Assembly: GCA_016125215.1 (NCBI GenBank)
Contig: WGMF01000033.1
Span: 1-64,000, forward strand
Length of the DNA: 64,000 bases
Direction: 5' to 3'
Origin: Phycisphaera sp.
Lineage (GTDB): Bacteria; Planctomycetota; Phycisphaerae; Phycisphaerales; Phycisphaeraceae
Position 1 is the first letter of the stretch, and every line of letters begins with the position of its first letter. Made by a program: the position numbers and the translations under genes. Below, piece after piece: positions 23,383 through 31,669 of the stretch. The notes below the pieces were generated by a model, which saw nothing but the letters and a program-made list of their open reading frames with translations, ran no database searches and was not told the DNA's origin.

Positions 23383-24018
23383 TCAATATGTGCGGATGAC
23401 GCCGACGACGATGCCCTGGATCTGGCATTCGTCGGGTTTGACGAAGAGCGGTTCGTAGGCGGGGTTGGCGGGCTGGAGGCGGTATCGGCCTTTTTCCTTG
23501 TAGAACTTCTTGAGCGTCGCTTCGCCGGTGTCGAGTAATGCCACGACGGTTTGGCCGTTGTAGGCGGTGTCCCGGCGTTCGATGACGACGTAGTCGCCGT
23601 CGCGGATCTGCTCTTCGATCATCGAGTCGCCCCGGACTTTCAACACGAAGTTGGTCTTGCGGGATGACCGTGGGGCAAAGAGGTCTTCGAGGTCGAGGGT
23701 CTGCTGGTCTTCGACAGCTTCGATGGGGAAGCCGGCGGCAATGGCACCGACGAGGGGGAGTCGTGAGCTACGCTCCTCGCTGGGGAGTTTGAAGGCGGGG
23801 TTGATCTCCAAAGAGCGAGCCTTGTTTTTGTCGCGTAGGAGCGCTCCCTTTCGGATCAAGGCCTCGACGTGCTCGAAGACCGTGACCTTGCTGACGCCCA
23901 GTTCGTCGGCCAATTCCTGCATGGTCGGGGAATAGCCTCGCGTCAAACGCATCTCGCGGATGCGCATCAGGATATCGAGCTGCTTGGGGGTGAGGTTGGG
24001 GTTTAGAGGGGGCGACAT
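23383..24018 (-). CDS. lexA: LexA repressor
   Basis: A 211-residue SOS repressor and self-cleaving serine protease. The N-terminal winged helix-turn-helix includes TPKQLDILMRI and SPTMQELADELGVSKVTVFEH. The cleavage site is Ala95-Gly96 in GAIAAGFP; the catalytic pair is Ser132 (GDSMIEEQ) and Lys170 (GEATLKKFY). The ATG at 24018 gives a normal start; the longer frame upstream is a shadow of another ORF. An unknown ORF overlaps its first 250 bases in a different frame, and an inverted repeat that could be an operator lies at 24576-24608. Confidence 0.95.
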   Translation of the reverse strand: MSPPLNPNLTPKQLDILMRIREMRLTRGYSPTMQELADELGVSKVTVFEHVEALIRKGALLRDKNKARSLEINPAFKLPSEERSSRLPLVGAIAAGFPIEAVEDQQTLDLEDLFAPRSSRKTNFVLKVRGDSMIEEQIRDGDYVVIERRDTAYNGQTVVALLDTGEATLKKFYKEKGRYRLQPANPAYEPLFVKPDECQIQGIVVGVIRTY

Positions 24019-24442
24019 GGTGTACCTCGTGGTGAGAGGGTTTGGGTGGGGTGTGAACCGTTGAGGCGTGCGACAGGGCAGCCTCCGGCAGGCGGACGAC
24101 GATGCGCGGCGAGAGCAGCGCTTCGGTCGGGATGTCGGCGTGGGGTGCGGGCGAGGAGAGGTGGCCGGTCTTGTCGTAGACACCCGTGGGCAGAGTGTTG
24201 GACTCGTGCTCGTAGGTATCGGACGCAAGCGTATGGACGTTGGTTGGGGTCGGCTGCGAGTTCTGGGACTGGTTTTGCCGACCACGACGCAGGCGTGTCC
24301 ACATCGCAAAGCCGCCGGCGGATTCGCCGTCGCTCTGATGGCCGAGGGCGGAATGGGTCTTTTTGACGAGCGAGGTGCCACGTGCGTGGTAAGTGTGCGT
24401 GTAGTCGCCGCCTGGGCCGAGCATGAGAATCGGGTTTGCCAT
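23768..24442 (-). CDS. Unknown ORF upstream of and overlapping lexA
   Basis: A 224-residue frame with GGAG eight bases before its ATG (MANPILMLGPGGDYT). Between 24018 and 24442 this frame has the composition of a coding frame (Asp, Glu, Lys and Gly present, GC-rich third positions), while the lexA frame there reads as a Ser/Thr/Arg/Pro-rich shadow. The last 83 codons lie inside lexA in another frame and look like shadow sequence, so the functional part is probably the first 140 or so residues. No domain was recognised; HARGTSLVKKTHSALGHQSD is a notable stretch. It would be co-transcribed with lexA. Confidence 0.45.
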   Translation of the reverse strand: MANPILMLGPGGDYTHTYHARGTSLVKKTHSALGHQSDGESAGGFAMWTRLRRGRQNQSQNSQPTPTNVHTLASDTYEHESNTLPTGVYDKTGHLSSPAPHADIPTEALLSPRIVVRLPEAALSHASTVHTPPKPSHHEVHHVAPSKPQPHPQAARYPDAHPRDAFDARLFPDHAGIGRRTGRQQGHGLRARRGLDPKGSAPTRQKQGSLFGDQPRLQTPQRGA

Positions 24443-24575
24443 GATGGGGTCTCCGGTTGGGTTTCCCTTGGGGTGGTCGTAAAGGCAAAGCCCCACATGT
24501 AGGGGTCCTGTCTCTTTGCCCGGGTTGACCTTCGACCATCACCATGACAAGCCTTGAAACTTTATCGACAAATCT

Positions 24576-24921: not shown

Positions 24922-26502
24922 ATGATTCAGCGCGCATCACGTAAACACGTCGTCATCATCGGCGCGGGGCCGGGTGGTTTGTCGTCGGCCATGCTGCTTA
25001 CACGGGCGGGCATCGAGGTCACGGTGCTCGAGCGTCAGCCCCGCATCGGTGGTCGCACGGGCACGTTCGTCGGGCAGGCGCCGGGTGACGGCGAGTTTCG
25101 TTTCGACATCGGTCCGACATTCTTTCTTTACCCGCGTGTGCTTGAAGAAATCTTTGAGGCCTGCGGGCGGAACCTGCGCGATGAAGTGGACCTGCGCAGG
25201 CTCGACCCGCAGTACCACCTTGTGTTTGAAGCGGGCGGCGAAGTCAGAGCCACCGGCGACGTGCAACGCATGAAGGCGCAGATCGCCTCGCTCTGCCCCG
25301 GTGATGCGCAGGCCTTTGAGAGGTACCTCGCGGAGAACCGGAAGAAGTTCGAGGCGTTTCGGCCGATCCTGCAAAGGCCTTTCAACTCCTGGCTGGACGT
25401 GCTGGACCCGAAGCTCGCAAGGTCGCTGCCTCTGGTTCGACCGTGGTCGAGTGTGGACAGCGACCTGAAGCGATATTTCTCCGACCCGCGTGTGCGGTTG
25501 TCGTTTTCGTTCCAGAGCAAGTATCTGGGGATGTCGCCCTTCCAGTGTCCCAGCCTGTTCACGATCCTCTCGTTCCTTGAATACGAATACGGCGTGTATC
25601 ACCCGATAGGCGGGTGTGGGGCGCTCTCGGCGGCGATGGCGCGCGTGGCGGAGCAACAGGGCGCGGAGATTCGGCTCAACGAGCCGGTGACGCGGGTGAT
25701 GTTTGAGGGCGACCGTGCGGTGGGTGTGAAGACGGAACTGGGTGAGTACCCGGCCGATGCGGTGCTGGTCAACGCCGACTTTGCCCACGCGATGAAGAAC
25801 CTGGTCCCCAACCGCCTGCGCAGACGCTGGCGTGACGAGAAGATCGACAGGAAAAAGTTTTCCTGCTCCACGTTCATGATGTACCTGGGCATCGAGGGGC
25901 GCTTCGACGACCTGGCCCACCACACCATCTTCCTGGCCAAGGACTACGAAAAAAACCTGCACGAGATCGAAAAATCGCACACGCTCTCGGACAACCCTTC
26001 TTTTTATGTGCAGAACGCCTGCGTGACCGACCCGACGCTCGCCCCGGCGGGGATGAGCACGCTCTACGTCCTGGCGCCCGTGACGCACGAGCACCCGAAT
26101 GTGGACTGGTCTAATCAAGTGTCTCACTTCCGCAAGCGTGTCATGTCGCAGCTCGAAAAGATCGGGCTGCACGGGCTGGAGAAGCGCGTGCGGTACGAGA
26201 AAATCCTCACCCCCGCCTCGTGGCAGAGTGAGATGGCCATCCACAAGGGCGCGACATTCAACCTCGCCCACAGCTTCGATCAGATGCTCCACCTCCGCCC
26301 CCGGAATCGTTTTGAGGACGTGCGCGGCATGTACCTCGTCGGCGGCGGCACGCACCCAGGAAGCGGGTTGCCCGTGATCTTCGAGTCGTCCAAAATCACC
26401 TCGGGGTTGATCCTGGAAGACCTGGGCGTGGGCACGTGTGTCACAGACCGGCACGTCATGCCCAGCCCGTGTCAGACCCCCGTGGCCAAGGCGGTCCTAT
26501 GA
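24922..26502 (+). CDS. crtN: CrtN-like carotenoid desaturase (C30 pathway)
   Basis: A 526-residue FAD-dependent enzyme of the CrtI/CrtN family. The N-terminal dinucleotide motif is VVIIGAGPGGLSSAMLL (about residues 10-26). The FDIGPTFFLYPRVLEEIF stretch, a SCSTFMMYLGIEG segment and the C-terminal GTHPGSGLPVIFESSKIT match CrtN better than CrtP from memory of the staphylococcal proteins. CrtN introduces double bonds in diapophytoene or squalene-derived C30 chains. The ATG at 24922 was preferred to the one at 24841, which adds a non-family leader. The stop overlaps the next start as ATGA. It opens a four-gene operon. Confidence 0.85.
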   Translation: MIQRASRKHVVIIGAGPGGLSSAMLLTRAGIEVTVLERQPRIGGRTGTFVGQAPGDGEFRFDIGPTFFLYPRVLEEIFEACGRNLRDEVDLRRLDPQYHLVFEAGGEVRATGDVQRMKAQIASLCPGDAQAFERYLAENRKKFEAFRPILQRPFNSWLDVLDPKLARSLPLVRPWSSVDSDLKRYFSDPRVRLSFSFQSKYLGMSPFQCPSLFTILSFLEYEYGVYHPIGGCGALSAAMARVAEQQGAEIRLNEPVTRVMFEGDRAVGVKTELGEYPADAVLVNADFAHAMKNLVPNRLRRRWRDEKIDRKKFSCSTFMMYLGIEGRFDDLAHHTIFLAKDYEKNLHEIEKSHTLSDNPSFYVQNACVTDPTLAPAGMSTLYVLAPVTHEHPNVDWSNQVSHFRKRVMSQLEKIGLHGLEKRVRYEKILTPASWQSEMAIHKGATFNLAHSFDQMLHLRPRNRFEDVRGMYLVGGGTHPGSGLPVIFESSKITSGLILEDLGVGTCVTDRHVMPSPCQTPVAKAVL

Positions 26503-29500
26503 ACGTGATCGTTCACGACATGACACTGGACGGCGTCCCGCACGAGCCGGTGGAGAGTCAAACACACGGCTCTGTTGCACACCGTCTGGCCCAGGCACGC
26601 GGCGCACAGCGGGCGTGGTCGCAACAGCCCGTGCGGGATCGCCTGCGCGTGGTCAAGAACCTGCGTCACCTGATCGCGGAGCACCATGAGAAGCTTTGCG
26701 GATCGGTCGAACTGCCGCAGCGCACACACAAGGGCCAGACGCTCGTTGCCGAGGTGCTGCCGATGGCGGATGCCTGCCGATTCCTCGAACGTGAGGCTGA
26801 CAAACTGTTGCGACCGCGACGCCTGGGGCGCAATGGTCGGCCGGCGTGGCTTACGGGGGTCGCCTCGGAAGTGCGACGCGAACCCCTGGGCGTCATCCTC
26901 ATCATCGGTCCGTCAAACTATCCCTTGACCCTTCCGGGGGTGCAGGCGATTCAAGCGCTCGTTGCGGGGAACGCGGTGTTGGTCAAGCCCGGCGCGGGGG
27001 GTCTGGAGCCGATGCGGATACTTGAGCGTTTGCTTGCCGGGGCCGGCTTGCCGGGGAATCTTTTTGGGGTGCTCGATGAATCGGTCGAAGCGGCGCGGCA
27101 GGCCATCGACGCGGGTGTGGACAAGGTGGTGCTCACCGGTTCTGCCCGTTCGGGCGAGGCGGTGCTCGGGGTGCTGGCACCCAAACTCGTGCCGGCGGTG
27201 ATGGAGCTCTCCGGTTGCGACGCGTGCTTTGTCCTGCCGGGGGCAGATGTCGAGATGACCGCCCGAGCGCTGGCGTGGGGGTTGACGTTCAACGGGTCGG
27301 CCACGTGCGTCGCGCCGAGGCGGGTCTTCGTCGATCAAACGGTGGCCGCGGCGCTGGAAGACCGGTTGCGTAAGCTGCTCACGTCACACACTCCGACGCA
27401 CGTGGAACCCAATGCGGCGGTATTGGCGTGCAGACTGGTCAAGGAAGCTGTGTCGGCAGGCGCTCGGGTTGTCACGGGGGCCGCGGATGCTGATCGCTTC
27501 ACCCCGGTGGTGCTCGCCGGTGTTCCCGAAAGCTGTGCGGTCCTGCGTGAAGATGTCTTTGCGCCGGTGATGTCACTCGTCCCGGTGCGCAGCGGTGTCG
27601 AGGCGCTTGAGCGTGCGGCACAGTGTGCTTACGCGCTGGGGGCGTCGGTCTTCGGTCCTGAAGACGAGGCCCGCCATTTTGCAACGCGTGTGAACGCGGG
27701 CTGCGTGACGGTCAACGACCTGATCGCGCCGATGGCCGACCCGCGCGTGCCCTTTGGCGGGCGCGGCCGCAGCGGCTTCGGTGTCACACGTGGACGCGAG
27801 GGGCTGCTCGAGATGACCGTTACCAAAACCCTCTGCACCCACCACGGCAAGTTCCGCCCGCACTTCGACACGATGACCGATGCGCAGCACACCGCGCTCT
27901 CGTACTACCTGGGTGTCGCACACAGCCGGGGGCTGGGACAGCGTATCGGACACCTGTTGAAGTTGATCCCCGCCGCGATAATGAGCCGTTCATCCACGAA
28001 CACCCCACCCCATCTATCCCCCCCCACACGGACACACAACATGACCCCAAACCTTGACCAGCCCATCGGCGTCATCGGCGGCGGACTCGCGGGACTGGCC
28101 GCGGCCTGCACGCTGGCCTCACGCGGATACCCCGTCAAGCTCTTCGAGCGCAACACCTGGTTAGGCGGCAAGGCGGCGCAGCTTGTCGGCGACTCACCGA
28201 TCGGCCGATTCCGCTTCGACATGGGGCCGACGATTTTGACGCTGCCCTCGGTCCTCCACCGCATCTTCCACGAGGCGGATCGTAAGACCGAAGACTACCT
28301 CGACCTCGTGCGTCTGGACCCGCAGTGGCGATGTTTCTTCGAGGACGGCTCGGTGCTCGACCTGCGCGAAGAAGCCGACGCGATGCGCAAGACGCTCGGG
28401 GATTTCAACGCCGACCCGGGCGTCGCGGAGGGTTACGCCCGGTTCGTCGATTACTCGCAACGCCTGCGTGATATCTCGGACCGATTCTTTTTCTGGAAGC
28501 CGATCGGCTCGATCCGCGACATGTTCGACGCCCGCACGACCTTCGACATCAAGACGCTCAAGGACGTGATGGCGATGCGGATGGGCCAGAGCGTGGCCGG
28601 CACGATCCGCAAATATGTCCCCGACGCGCGGGTCTGCCAGATGCTCGACCACTTCACGCAGTACGTCGGCTCGTCGCCCTACGCGTCACCGGCGATCTTG
28701 TGCTCGATCGCCCACATGCAGACGCACGACGGCGTGTGGTACCCGATGGGCGGCACACGCGCGGTGCCCGAGGCGCTGACAAAACTTGCCACCGAGCTAG
28801 GCGTCGGGTTCCACACCGGCGAGGGCAACGGCGTCAAACAGATTGTCATAGACCACCACCGTGTCGTCGGCGTCGTGCTGGACAGCGGCGAGAAGATTGA
28901 ACTGTCCGCGGTGGTCTCGAACATGGACGCGGTCCGCACACACCGTGAACTTGTCGGCGGCGACGTGGCAGAACGCTTCGAGCGCAGACGGTCTTACGAG
29001 CCGGCCTGCTCGGGCGTCGTGCTCTACCTGGGTCTGAGGAAAGCCTACGAGCACGTCGCCCACCACGATTTTGTCTTCTCACGCGACCCGGAGGAGGAGT
29101 TCGACGCGATCTACAAGCAAGGCGAGCCCGCGCCGGACCCGACGTGCTACCTTGCCGCCACCGCACGTACGGAAACGGCCGTGGCCCCAGCGGGTGGCGA
29201 GGCGCTCTACGTCCTCGTCCACACCCCCTACCTCCGCAATCACCACAACTGGGCAACGAATGGCTCCCTCTTCCGGGGGTATCGGCAGACCATCCTCGAC
29301 AAACTCAAACGCACCGCGGGCATGGAGGACATCGAAGAGCGCATCGTCTACGAGGCTGCCCTCACACCGCAGGACATCCACGACCGTTACCGCGTGCTCA
29401 ACGGCGCGATCTACGGCTTGGCCAGCCACGGCAAGTTCCTCGGCGCCTTCAAGCCCGGCAACCGCAGCCCCGACGTCGAGGGCCTCTACCTCGCCGGTGG

Positions 29501-29615
29501 CGCCGCCCACCCCGGCCCCGGCATGCCCATGGTCCTCATGTCGGGCTACATCGCCGGCGACACGCTCGACAAGGACGGCGTGGTCCACAAAACCGCCGAG
29601 GCGGTCACGGTGTGA
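26499..29615 (+). CDS. Aldehyde dehydrogenase - CrtP-like carotenoid oxidase, one continuous frame
   Basis: A 1038-residue frame without any stop joins two enzymes. Residues 1-495 are an aldehyde dehydrogenase: catalytic Cys at about 270 (NGSATCVAPRR), general base Glu at about 236 (VMELSGCD), cofactor loop VVLTGSARSGEAVL. Residues 515-1038 are a CrtP-like FAD oxidase: VIGGGLAGLAAACTLA, then DMGPTILTLPSVLHRIF, QYVGSSPYASPAIL, VAHHDFVFS and the end HPGPGMPMVLMSG. CrtP oxidises the terminal methyl of C30 carotenoids to an aldehyde and AldH takes it to the acid, so the fusion would channel the aldehyde. The linker (NTPPHLSPPTRTH) is Pro-rich. The alternative is two genes without a stop between, the second starting at the ATG at 28041, which has only a weak GGA before it. 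Confidence 0.8.
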   Translation: MNVIVHDMTLDGVPHEPVESQTHGSVAHRLAQARGAQRAWSQQPVRDRLRVVKNLRHLIAEHHEKLCGSVELPQRTHKGQTLVAEVLPMADACRFLEREADKLLRPRRLGRNGRPAWLTGVASEVRREPLGVILIIGPSNYPLTLPGVQAIQALVAGNAVLVKPGAGGLEPMRILERLLAGAGLPGNLFGVLDESVEAARQAIDAGVDKVVLTGSARSGEAVLGVLAPKLVPAVMELSGCDACFVLPGADVEMTARALAWGLTFNGSATCVAPRRVFVDQTVAAALEDRLRKLLTSHTPTHVEPNAAVLACRLVKEAVSAGARVVTGAADADRFTPVVLAGVPESCAVLREDVFAPVMSLVPVRSGVEALERAAQCAYALGASVFGPEDEARHFATRVNAGCVTVNDLIAPMADPRVPFGGRGRSGFGVTRGREGLLEMTVTKTLCTHHGKFRPHFDTMTDAQHTALSYYLGVAHSRGLGQRIGHLLKLIPAAIMSRSSTNTPPHLSPPTRTHNMTPNLDQPIGVIGGGLAGLAAACTLASRGYPVKLFERNTWLGGKAAQLVGDSPIGRFRFDMGPTILTLPSVLHRIFHEADRKTEDYLDLVRLDPQWRCFFEDGSVLDLREEADAMRKTLGDFNADPGVAEGYARFVDYSQRLRDISDRFFFWKPIGSIRDMFDARTTFDIKTLKDVMAMRMGQSVAGTIRKYVPDARVCQMLDHFTQYVGSSPYASPAILCSIAHMQTHDGVWYPMGGTRAVPEALTKLATELGVGFHTGEGNGVKQIVIDHHRVVGVVLDSGEKIELSAVVSNMDAVRTHRELVGGDVAERFERRRSYEPACSGVVLYLGLRKAYEHVAHHDFVFSRDPEEEFDAIYKQGEPAPDPTCYLAATARTETAVAPAGGEALYVLVHTPYLRNHHNWATNGSLFRGYRQTILDKLKRTAGMEDIEERIVYEAALTPQDIHDRYRVLNGAIYGLASHGKFLGAFKPGNRSPDVEGLYLAGGAAHPGPGMPMVLMSGYIAGDTLDKDGVVHKTAEAVTV

Positions 29616-29646
29616 AAGGCGGGCGACAGCTCAATTGACATTTCAG

Positions 29647-29678
29647 ATCATCAATCATCAATTATCAATCATCAATGG
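29647..29678. repeat. ATCATCAAT-type word repeat
   Basis: ATCATCAATC recurs with variants (ATCATCAATT, ATCAATCATC) in the gap before the acyltransferase gene. A near-identical copy lies at 44936-44967, ending likewise in ATCATCAATGG. It sits within an operon gap of about 90 bases. Confidence 0.75.
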
Positions 29679-29708: not shown

Positions 29709-30512
29709 ATGCCACCAGCCGCCAACAACCTGTTACACCGCGTCCCGGTCGTGAACGCGCGCGTCCACCGGGCCTTTGCGTGGTACGGCGGGCGTTTCCT
29801 GCGCAAGCACTTCCACGGCGTACGCATCGCGCGCGACGGTCAGCCTCACGCTCGGGACGGCCAACCCCTGATCGTCTACCTCAACCACCCCTCGTGGTGG
29901 GACCCGATGGTCTGCCTGCACCTCTCGCAGGTCTACTTCAAGCCACGCACGCACTTCGCGCCGATCGACGCGGTGATGCTCGAAAAATACCGCTTCTTCG
30001 AGAAGGTCGGGTTCTTCGGCATCCAGCCCGACTCGCCTCGCGGTGGGGTGACGTTTATCCGCACCGCGCGGGCGATCCTGGAATCCCCCCGCCACGCCCT
30101 GTGGATCACCGCGCAGGGCCGCTTCACCGACCCAAGGGAGCGGCCTGTATCACTGCGACCGGGGCTTGCCCACCTGCTCACAAAAATATCAAACGGCACC
30201 GTCCTGCCGTTGGCGGTCGAGTACCCCTTCTGGGACGAACGCAAGCCCGAGGCCCTCGTGCGATTCGGGCAGCCGATTGAGATTCAAGAGCACGCCGACC
30301 GGGACAACGCCCAGTGGCAAGCGCTCCTCGAAGAACGCATGACACAGACGATGGACCAGCTCACACAAGACGCGCTCTCGCGCGACGCCTCACGTTTCGA
30401 GAGTTTGCTGCGCGGGCGGTCGGGTGTGAACGTGGCCTATGATCTGTGGCGGTCGGGCGTGGCCCGCATCCAACGCAAACCCTTCCGCTCCGAACACGGG
30501 GCCACCCCATGA
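29709..30512 (+). CDS. PlsC-type acyltransferase of the carotenoid operon
   Basis: A 267-residue protein of the lysophosphatidic acid acyltransferase superfamily. The catalytic HX4D motif is NHPSWWDP near residue 60; a second block, APIDAVMLEKYRFFEKVGFFGI, and ITAQGRFTDPRERP (acyl-acceptor pocket) follow. In staphyloxanthin synthesis the last step, acylation of the sugar, is done by CrtO, which belongs to another family. Here a PlsC-like enzyme takes the equivalent place in the operon, so acylation of the glycosylated carotenoid acid is the likely role, by inference. Its end overlaps the next gene as ATGA. Confidence 0.78.
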   Translation: MPPAANNLLHRVPVVNARVHRAFAWYGGRFLRKHFHGVRIARDGQPHARDGQPLIVYLNHPSWWDPMVCLHLSQVYFKPRTHFAPIDAVMLEKYRFFEKVGFFGIQPDSPRGGVTFIRTARAILESPRHALWITAQGRFTDPRERPVSLRPGLAHLLTKISNGTVLPLAVEYPFWDERKPEALVRFGQPIEIQEHADRDNAQWQALLEERMTQTMDQLTQDALSRDASRFESLLRGRSGVNVAYDLWRSGVARIQRKPFRSEHGATP

Positions 30513-31669
30513 TCCTGCAAAACACGCTGCTGCTTATCTATCTCGCCCTGGCGCTCTTGCCCGTTGTGATGGTGCTCCGCAACAGCACGCTCTATCGTGC
30601 GCCCGGATCGATGAAACAGGCTGGCTCGGATACCGGTGGGGTTTCGCTCCTGATCCCCGCACGCAACGAAGAAAAAACAATCCGGCGTTGCGTCGAGGCG
30701 GCGCTGCAAAGCGTGGGCGTGGACCTGGAAATCATCGTGCTTGATGACCACTCCGACGACGCCACCGCGTCGATCGTCAAGGCTATCGCAGAGCGTGACG
30801 GTCGCCTGCGCCTCGCCACCGCTCCGCCCCTCCCGGGGGGTTGGTGCGGCAAGCAGCACGCCTGTTACGAACTGTCCAAACTCGCGCGTCACGACGTGTT
30901 GTGTTTCATCGACGCCGACGTGGAGCTAGCCCCCGACGCCCTCGCACGCGCAGCGGGCTTCCTGCACACCAGCGGCGCCGCCCTTGTCAGCGGCTTCCCG
31001 CGCCAGGCCACCGGGTCGTTCATGGAGAAGCTGCTCATCCCGCTCATCCACTTCGTGCTGCTGGGCTACCTGCCGATGAAGTGGATGCGTCAAACCACGG
31101 GCGTCTCGTTCGGCGCGGGTTGCGGGCAGTTTTTCGTGACCCGACGCGAGGCGTATACACACGTCGGCGGTCACGCGGCCATCCGCTCCTCCCTGCACGA
31201 CGGGTTGATGCTGCCCCGCGCCTTCCGTGCCCGAGGCTACCGGACCGACCTGTTCGATGCGACATCGCTCGCACGCTGCCGGATGTATCACGGCGCGGGC
31301 GAGGTTTTCCGGGGTCTAACCAAAAACGCCACCGAGGGCATGGCCACCCGGGCCGCCCTGCCGTGGTGGACGCTGATCCTCGGCGTCGGTCAGGCCCAGC
31401 CGTTCGTTGTGACACTGTGGTGGCTAACTGGCAATGCCCCGTGGGGCGAATTACCCCGCGACATGCTTGTCCTTGCCTCGTGCACTGTCTGTGTGCTGCT
31501 GATCGCAACACGTTTGTTCATGACAATCCGCTACCGTCAGAGCCTCCTCGGCGCACTGCTGCACCCGGTCGGCATCACCTTGCTGCTGGTCATCCAGTGG
31601 GTCGCTCTCGTGCGTCGCATGATGGGCAAGAGTTCAGGGTGGAAGGGCCGAGCCTACGCGCCAGCCTGA
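30509..31669 (+). CDS. crtQ: CrtQ-like family 2 glycosyltransferase
   Basis: A 386-residue membrane-associated GT2 enzyme. One N-terminal helix (LLLIYLALALLPVVMVL) is followed by the catalytic domain: VSLLIPARNEEKTIRRCV, the GKQHACYELSK block and the DXD-type CFIDADVELAPDAL, then two or three C-terminal helices. From memory, GK-x-HACY, the DADV motif and the end WKGRAY correspond to staphylococcal CrtQ, which glycosylates 4,4'-diaponeurosporenoate. It follows the acyltransferase with a four-base overlap and is the last gene of the operon. Confidence 0.83.
   Translation: MILQNTLLLIYLALALLPVVMVLRNSTLYRAPGSMKQAGSDTGGVSLLIPARNEEKTIRRCVEAALQSVGVDLEIIVLDDHSDDATASIVKAIAERDGRLRLATAPPLPGGWCGKQHACYELSKLARHDVLCFIDADVELAPDALARAAGFLHTSGAALVSGFPRQATGSFMEKLLIPLIHFVLLGYLPMKWMRQTTGVSFGAGCGQFFVTRREAYTHVGGHAAIRSSLHDGLMLPRAFRARGYRTDLFDATSLARCRMYHGAGEVFRGLTKNATEGMATRAALPWWTLILGVGQAQPFVVTLWWLTGNAPWGELPRDMLVLASCTVCVLLIATRLFMTIRYRQSLLGALLHPVGITLLLVIQWVALVRRMMGKSSGWKGRAYAPA

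Follow-up and report, generated by a model that had tools for sequence, protein, structure and literature searches.

Results

Genes at the locus

The window analysed here, a 64,000-nucleotide stretch of contig WGMF01000033.1 from Phycisphaera sp., contains a single plus-strand open reading frame of 1038 codons that runs from the ATG at 26499 to a stop ending at 29615. Its first half matches the aldehyde dehydrogenase family (Pfam Aldedh, residues 20-444, E 2.3e-73) and its second half matches the CrtI family of carotenoid oxidoreductases (Pfam Amino_oxidase, residues 530-810; NCBIfam crtI_fam, TIGR02734, residues 524-1029), and the AldH frame is read through into crtP with no stop between them. 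A sequence-only reading had described an in-frame joining of AldH to a CrtP-like oxidase through a short, proline-rich linker. This observation is confirmed at the level of the sequence, and the linker is indeed short and rich in proline and threonine. The whole fused protein is matched at one place in its own genome, an assembly of 4.04 Mb in 58 contigs.

The frame is part of a run of plus-strand genes in the order crtN-aldH-crtP-acyltransferase-glycosyltransferase (Table 1), which is the order of a C30-type carotenoid operon. The stop codon of crtN overlaps the start of aldH by four nucleotides in the form ATGA, and the same overlap joins the acyltransferase and glycosyltransferase genes. 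The same five-gene arrangement is found in 42 of 108 loci, a set that was not de-duplicated, and these come from several phyla, including the phylum of the window and public contigs titled Verrucomicrobia, Acidobacteria and others; among further loci some break off at the end of a contig and some have no aldH. The longest gap in the operon, 93 nucleotides, separates crtP from the acyltransferase gene and contains an A+T-rich segment (29644-29677) with near-repeats of ATCATCA. Elsewhere in the window, in a minus-strand frame at 23383-24498, the residues from 168 onward match the LexA DNA-binding and Peptidase S24 domains; the first 160 or so have no listed match, and the true LexA start is probably internal to this frame.

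Table 1. Positions of genes and junction elements in the window
Feature	Position	Strand	Remarks
crtN-like CrtI-family desaturase	24922..26502	+	TIGR02734, 543 bits; ATG 24922 is the chosen start
aldH, aldehyde dehydrogenase plus linker	26499..28040	+	Pfam Aldedh; in frame into crtP
Linker lacking a coding signature	27996..28040	+	AldH frame: -15.8 bits over the 20 codons preceding 28041
C8 tract	28018..28025	+	ends 15 nt before ATG 28041
GGA, possible weak Shine-Dalgarno core of crtP	28030..28032	+	8 nt 5' of ATG 28041
crtP-like oxidase	28041..29615	+	crtI_fam; ATG followed by A (ATGA)
Acyltransferase (PF01553)	29709..30512	+	Pfam
Family-2 glycosyltransferase	30509..31669	+	domain matches and operon position

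The two halves of the frame

The AldH half has the fold and the catalytic residues of an aldehyde dehydrogenase. Residues N140, E236 and C270 occupy invariant columns in an alignment of 27 sequences, and we take them to be the catalytic Asn, Glu and Cys of this family. An AlphaFold2 model of AldH and the linker, computed apart from the CrtP half, has a mean pLDDT of 88.9, and the PDB matches of AldH are ordinary aldehyde dehydrogenases. The last AldH helix of the model comprises residues 479-499 and is followed by a low-confidence stretch with pLDDT near 50.

The CrtP half has a CrtI-family fold with an FAD motif and is 66-73% identical to nine proteins from same-family genomes, the closest CrtPs aligned; in the PDB it matches carotenoid desaturases best. 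Operon order makes it likely that this half is CrtP rather than another CrtI-family member.

A separate start for crtP is retained inside the frame. The ATG at 28041 lies 12 residues before the FAD motif, equal to the median of the 65 relatives whose starts overlap (6-56 residues). An earlier ATG at 27981 lies 32 residues before the motif, a distance reached by 2 of the 65 relatives, and because of this difference (12 versus 32 residues) 28041 is preferred, which does not disprove 27981. The internal ATG had been described as having only a weak ribosome site. The site is weak but not absent, since a GGA lies 8 nucleotides upstream, and a GGA or AGG is found in the same zone in 48 of the 65 relatives, compared with 41% after shuffling. 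An A directly after an ATG, as at 28041, is not rare by chance.

The junction between aldH and crtP

Whether the frame stays open is set by the exact size of a run of eight cytosines in the linker. With seven or ten cytosines, the AldH frame would close at TGA 28042-28044, which forms the ATGA overlap with crtP; with one more or two fewer than eight, it would close at TGA 28055. Thus, each of the changes -2, -1, +1 and +2 restores a stop.

The linker also differs in coding signature from the gene that precedes it. Its score in Table 1 compares with a mean of 11.2 bits for the body of the same aldH, so that the coding signature expected of a selected AldH-CrtP fusion was not found. The aldH tails of 139 relatives (loci not de-duplicated) average -0.1 bits; 3 of the 139 score as low as the linker, and by z-score 9 of the 139 are as extreme. 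Poorly coding tails are therefore general in aldH, and the tail at this locus is among the worst. In another scoring, of the linker in three frames, the AldH frame gave -10.2 bits, the +1 frame -15.1 and the +2 frame +4.6; this last value has no explanation, and we regard it as noise from a stretch of just 20 codons.

The retained crtP start, the position of the C8 tract, the poorly coding linker and the low-pLDDT tail together lead us to favour the loss of a stop at an ordinary gene boundary, which fits the junction better than an evolved linker does.

Arrangement of aldH and crtP in other genomes

Junctions were collected from an order search, a phylum search and a set of public contigs. The order search covered 301 genomes drawn from a larger group, of which 116, including that of the window, had a CrtP match; its 119 loci comprised 96 adjacent pairs, 17 without an upstream same-strand aldH, 4 CrtN-like loci, 1 duplicate and 1 without crtP, and genomes G123, G175, G188 and G190 were left out of the junction counts. 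The phylum set of 19 loci comprised 5 adjacent pairs, 5 without aldH, 1 with aldH more than 600 nucleotides away, 7 duplicates and 1 without crtP, and several distant matches (for example G394, G576, G598 and G607) were left out of the counts. The public set, the best 80 of 587 contigs, comprised 41 adjacent pairs, 36 without aldH, 1 with aldH more than 600 nucleotides away and 2 duplicates. The class without aldH takes in loci that break off at a contig end and any whose aldH has diverged beyond the reach of the two AldH queries.

The sequence-only reading had held that stops between the two domains in close relatives would speak against the fusion. Such stops are present in each of the 12 same-family genomes in which the pair occurs, where aldH and crtP are separate genes, and in all 142 distinct adjacent pairs, so that the open frame kept in relatives that would mark a selected fusion was found in 0 of 142. 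In the phylum search of 392 genomes, the window alone gave a whole-length match to the fused protein. A four-nucleotide stop/start overlap joins 67 of the 142 distinct pairs, in the form ATGA in 52 of the 67, and in 19 of the 142 the two genes share one frame with a stop kept between them. One such pair, in the same-family genome G003, has a TAA between the genes. The closest relatives compared belong to the same family, with CrtPs 66-73% identical among the matches listed, and because the comparison starts at this identity a recent fusion common to sister species would be missed.

Other frames of more than 1000 amino acids around crtP, in several high-GC relatives, were considered as candidate fusions and rejected as open by chance. 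In G083, G126, G057, G073 and G094, aldH precedes crtP but is read in a different frame and ends at a stop of its own; a similar frame in G043 has no aldH upstream within the stretch read, and those in G444 and G472 have no aldH match in the stretches read. In G043 (loci L173, C1:404000-413000, and L174, C1:98000-106000), crtP has no upstream aldH, the nearest aldH relative among the matches listed lies about 300 kb from crtP, and two 80-residue stretches downstream of crtP resemble its end. Finally, a literature search at the level of titles and abstract openings returned no CrtP-AldH fusion.

Discussion

Origin of the open frame

We consider it probable that this locus is an ordinary boundary between two genes at which a one-base change in length has abolished the stop, the change being either a real mutation confined to this genome or an error in the sequence. 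The ancestral state would be aldH and crtP as two genes with a four-nucleotide overlap, as in about half of the relatives, and such a stop/start overlap would fit translational coupling of the pair. The length change would lie between the two domains, most likely as an extra C in the C8 tract, for which we infer a C7 ancestor; the extra base would place aldH in frame with crtP and remove the aldH stop. That both other four-nucleotide junctions of the operon are ATGA speaks for two genes; against this stands the intact appearance of both the AldH and CrtP domains, with which a fused protein could work.

Like the translationally coupled ATGA pairs described in PMC6728339 and PMC10666635, crtP begins with ATGA, and two more such junctions occur in the operon; unlike in those pairs, the overlapping TGA is unused by the aldH frame. 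In these two reporter studies, coupled translation held strictly for 13 of 14 overlapping pairs, and a distance of about 20 nucleotides came close to abolishing it. A real C8 tract would deprive crtP of reinitiation after aldH, leaving CrtP to be made as a fusion or through new initiation at a weak site.

The part of this explanation that assigns the extra base to sequencing or assembly error in the homopolymer, with the cell carrying two genes, is a serious but tentative proposal that we hold at somewhat below even chances. The dependence of the open frame on exact run length, where every small change restores a stop, is what such an error would produce, and so is a fusion unique among the pairs compared; yet an A7 run inside crtN has left that gene intact, and no further homopolymer errors were demonstrated in the window. 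If the tract is an error, the usual two-gene pair exists. In either case the locus gives reason for caution, as a single-base homopolymer change can produce an impressive fusion frame.

Could the frame instead encode a selected bifunctional enzyme, with AldH and CrtP in one chain passing a carotenoid aldehyde directly between them? We regard this as unlikely. The frame is open, both domains look intact, 142 distinct pairs have the two genes side by side, and subunits of complexes are over-represented among genes with short overlaps (PMC10666635). However, a fused relative is absent from all sets examined, the linker has no coding signature, and all features of a separate crtP start are retained. 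Fusion of pathway enzymes has precedents as described in PMC10016063 and PMC3139582, where crtIBY of thraustochytrids and al-2 of Neurospora combine pathway enzymes in one protein; those, however, join other enzymes and are described as functional, whereas the AldH-CrtP frame is a singleton known from its sequence.

The earlier proposal that the fusion channels a reactive aldehyde is thus unsupported, as aldH and crtP are separate genes in all of the distinct pairs, and AldH-to-CrtP channelling is a guess. The fused protein may possibly function as an enzyme, given the invariant AldH columns and a CrtP half that is well conserved, and AldH and CrtP may be physical partners because short overlaps are enriched among complex subunits (PMC10666635, as above). 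A fusion that truly exists in the cell would point to such a partnership and would offer a ready-made enzyme for carotenoid acids.

We give very little credence to a fourth explanation, in which the C8 tract acts as a switch and a change in its length, or +1 ribosome slippage on the prolines, yields the fused protein as well as two coupled proteins. CCC-C tracts in proline codons readily undergo +1 shifts, and one on CCC CCC A would reach the TGA at 28042-28044 and the crtP ATG; but a single genome is its basis, and the arrangement is absent from all other sequences compared. If true, it would provide a natural CrtP-AldH fusion under tract-length control, with C8 giving a fused protein that passes the reactive aldehyde on directly and other lengths, or slippage, giving the two coupled proteins.

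A probable C30-type pathway

Lost stop or not, the comparison gives a clear picture of a widespread operon with aldH beside crtP. The domains and operon context fit the CrtP-to-AldH pathway that had been proposed, while a meaningful channelling fusion within it is unsupported. Squalene precursor genes are present in the genome: contig C10 carries an HpnE match of 427 bits, above the cut-off, beside two strong SQS_PSY matches that we infer to be HpnC and HpnD. A third SQS_PSY match, on contig C27, is weak (40 bits), and a C40 route is possible as well. Context supports putative roles for the operon genes in a C30-type pathway, in which squalene would be desaturated by CrtN, CrtP would oxidise the carotenoid end to an aldehyde, and AldH would in turn oxidise this aldehyde to an acid, followed by glycosylation and acylation. 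These protein products and this chemistry are likely for the organism. The best NCBIfam match of the glycosyltransferase is HpnB ('hopene-associated'), at 128 bits below the cut-off of 379, and in its operon setting a carotenoid role looks more likely than a hopene role.

The steps resemble those of staphyloxanthin synthesis in Staphylococcus aureus (crtMNPQO plus aldH), which also involves CrtN, CrtP, AldH, a glycosyltransferase and an acyltransferase (as outlined in PMC10448405). There, according to the same text, aldH stands on its own, apart from crtMNPQO, whereas here it lies in the operon; the precursor genes, unlike those of S. aureus, are of squalene type. The locus also resembles the C30 carotenoid genes of Methylobacterium extorquens AM1, which has the trio crtP META1p3665, acyltransferase META1p3664 and glycosyltransferase META1p3663, an acyltransferase of lysophospholipid type and, as here, squalene as precursor; its C30 pathway ends in glycosylated, acylated diapolycopenedioic acid (all as given in PMC10448405). 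According to that source, deletion of two aldehyde dehydrogenase candidates had no effect in AM1, and the enzyme there remains unidentified. The roles proposed for the genes of the window are assigned by analogy with this pathway. Unlike in AM1, where no aldehyde dehydrogenase has been identified, aldH here lies directly 5' of crtP and in frame with it.

Eight loci from the comparison (L200, L209, L239, L246, L248, L249, L257 and L263) have an AldH relative (41-57% identity) on the opposite strand, divergent from crtN-crtP. They lie on public contigs titled Azospirillum, Elstera, Skermanella, Rhodospirillales, Acetobacteraceae and Caenispirillum, and the divergent AldH is a candidate for the aldehyde dehydrogenase of the C30 pathways of alphaproteobacteria, M. 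extorquens AM1 among them.
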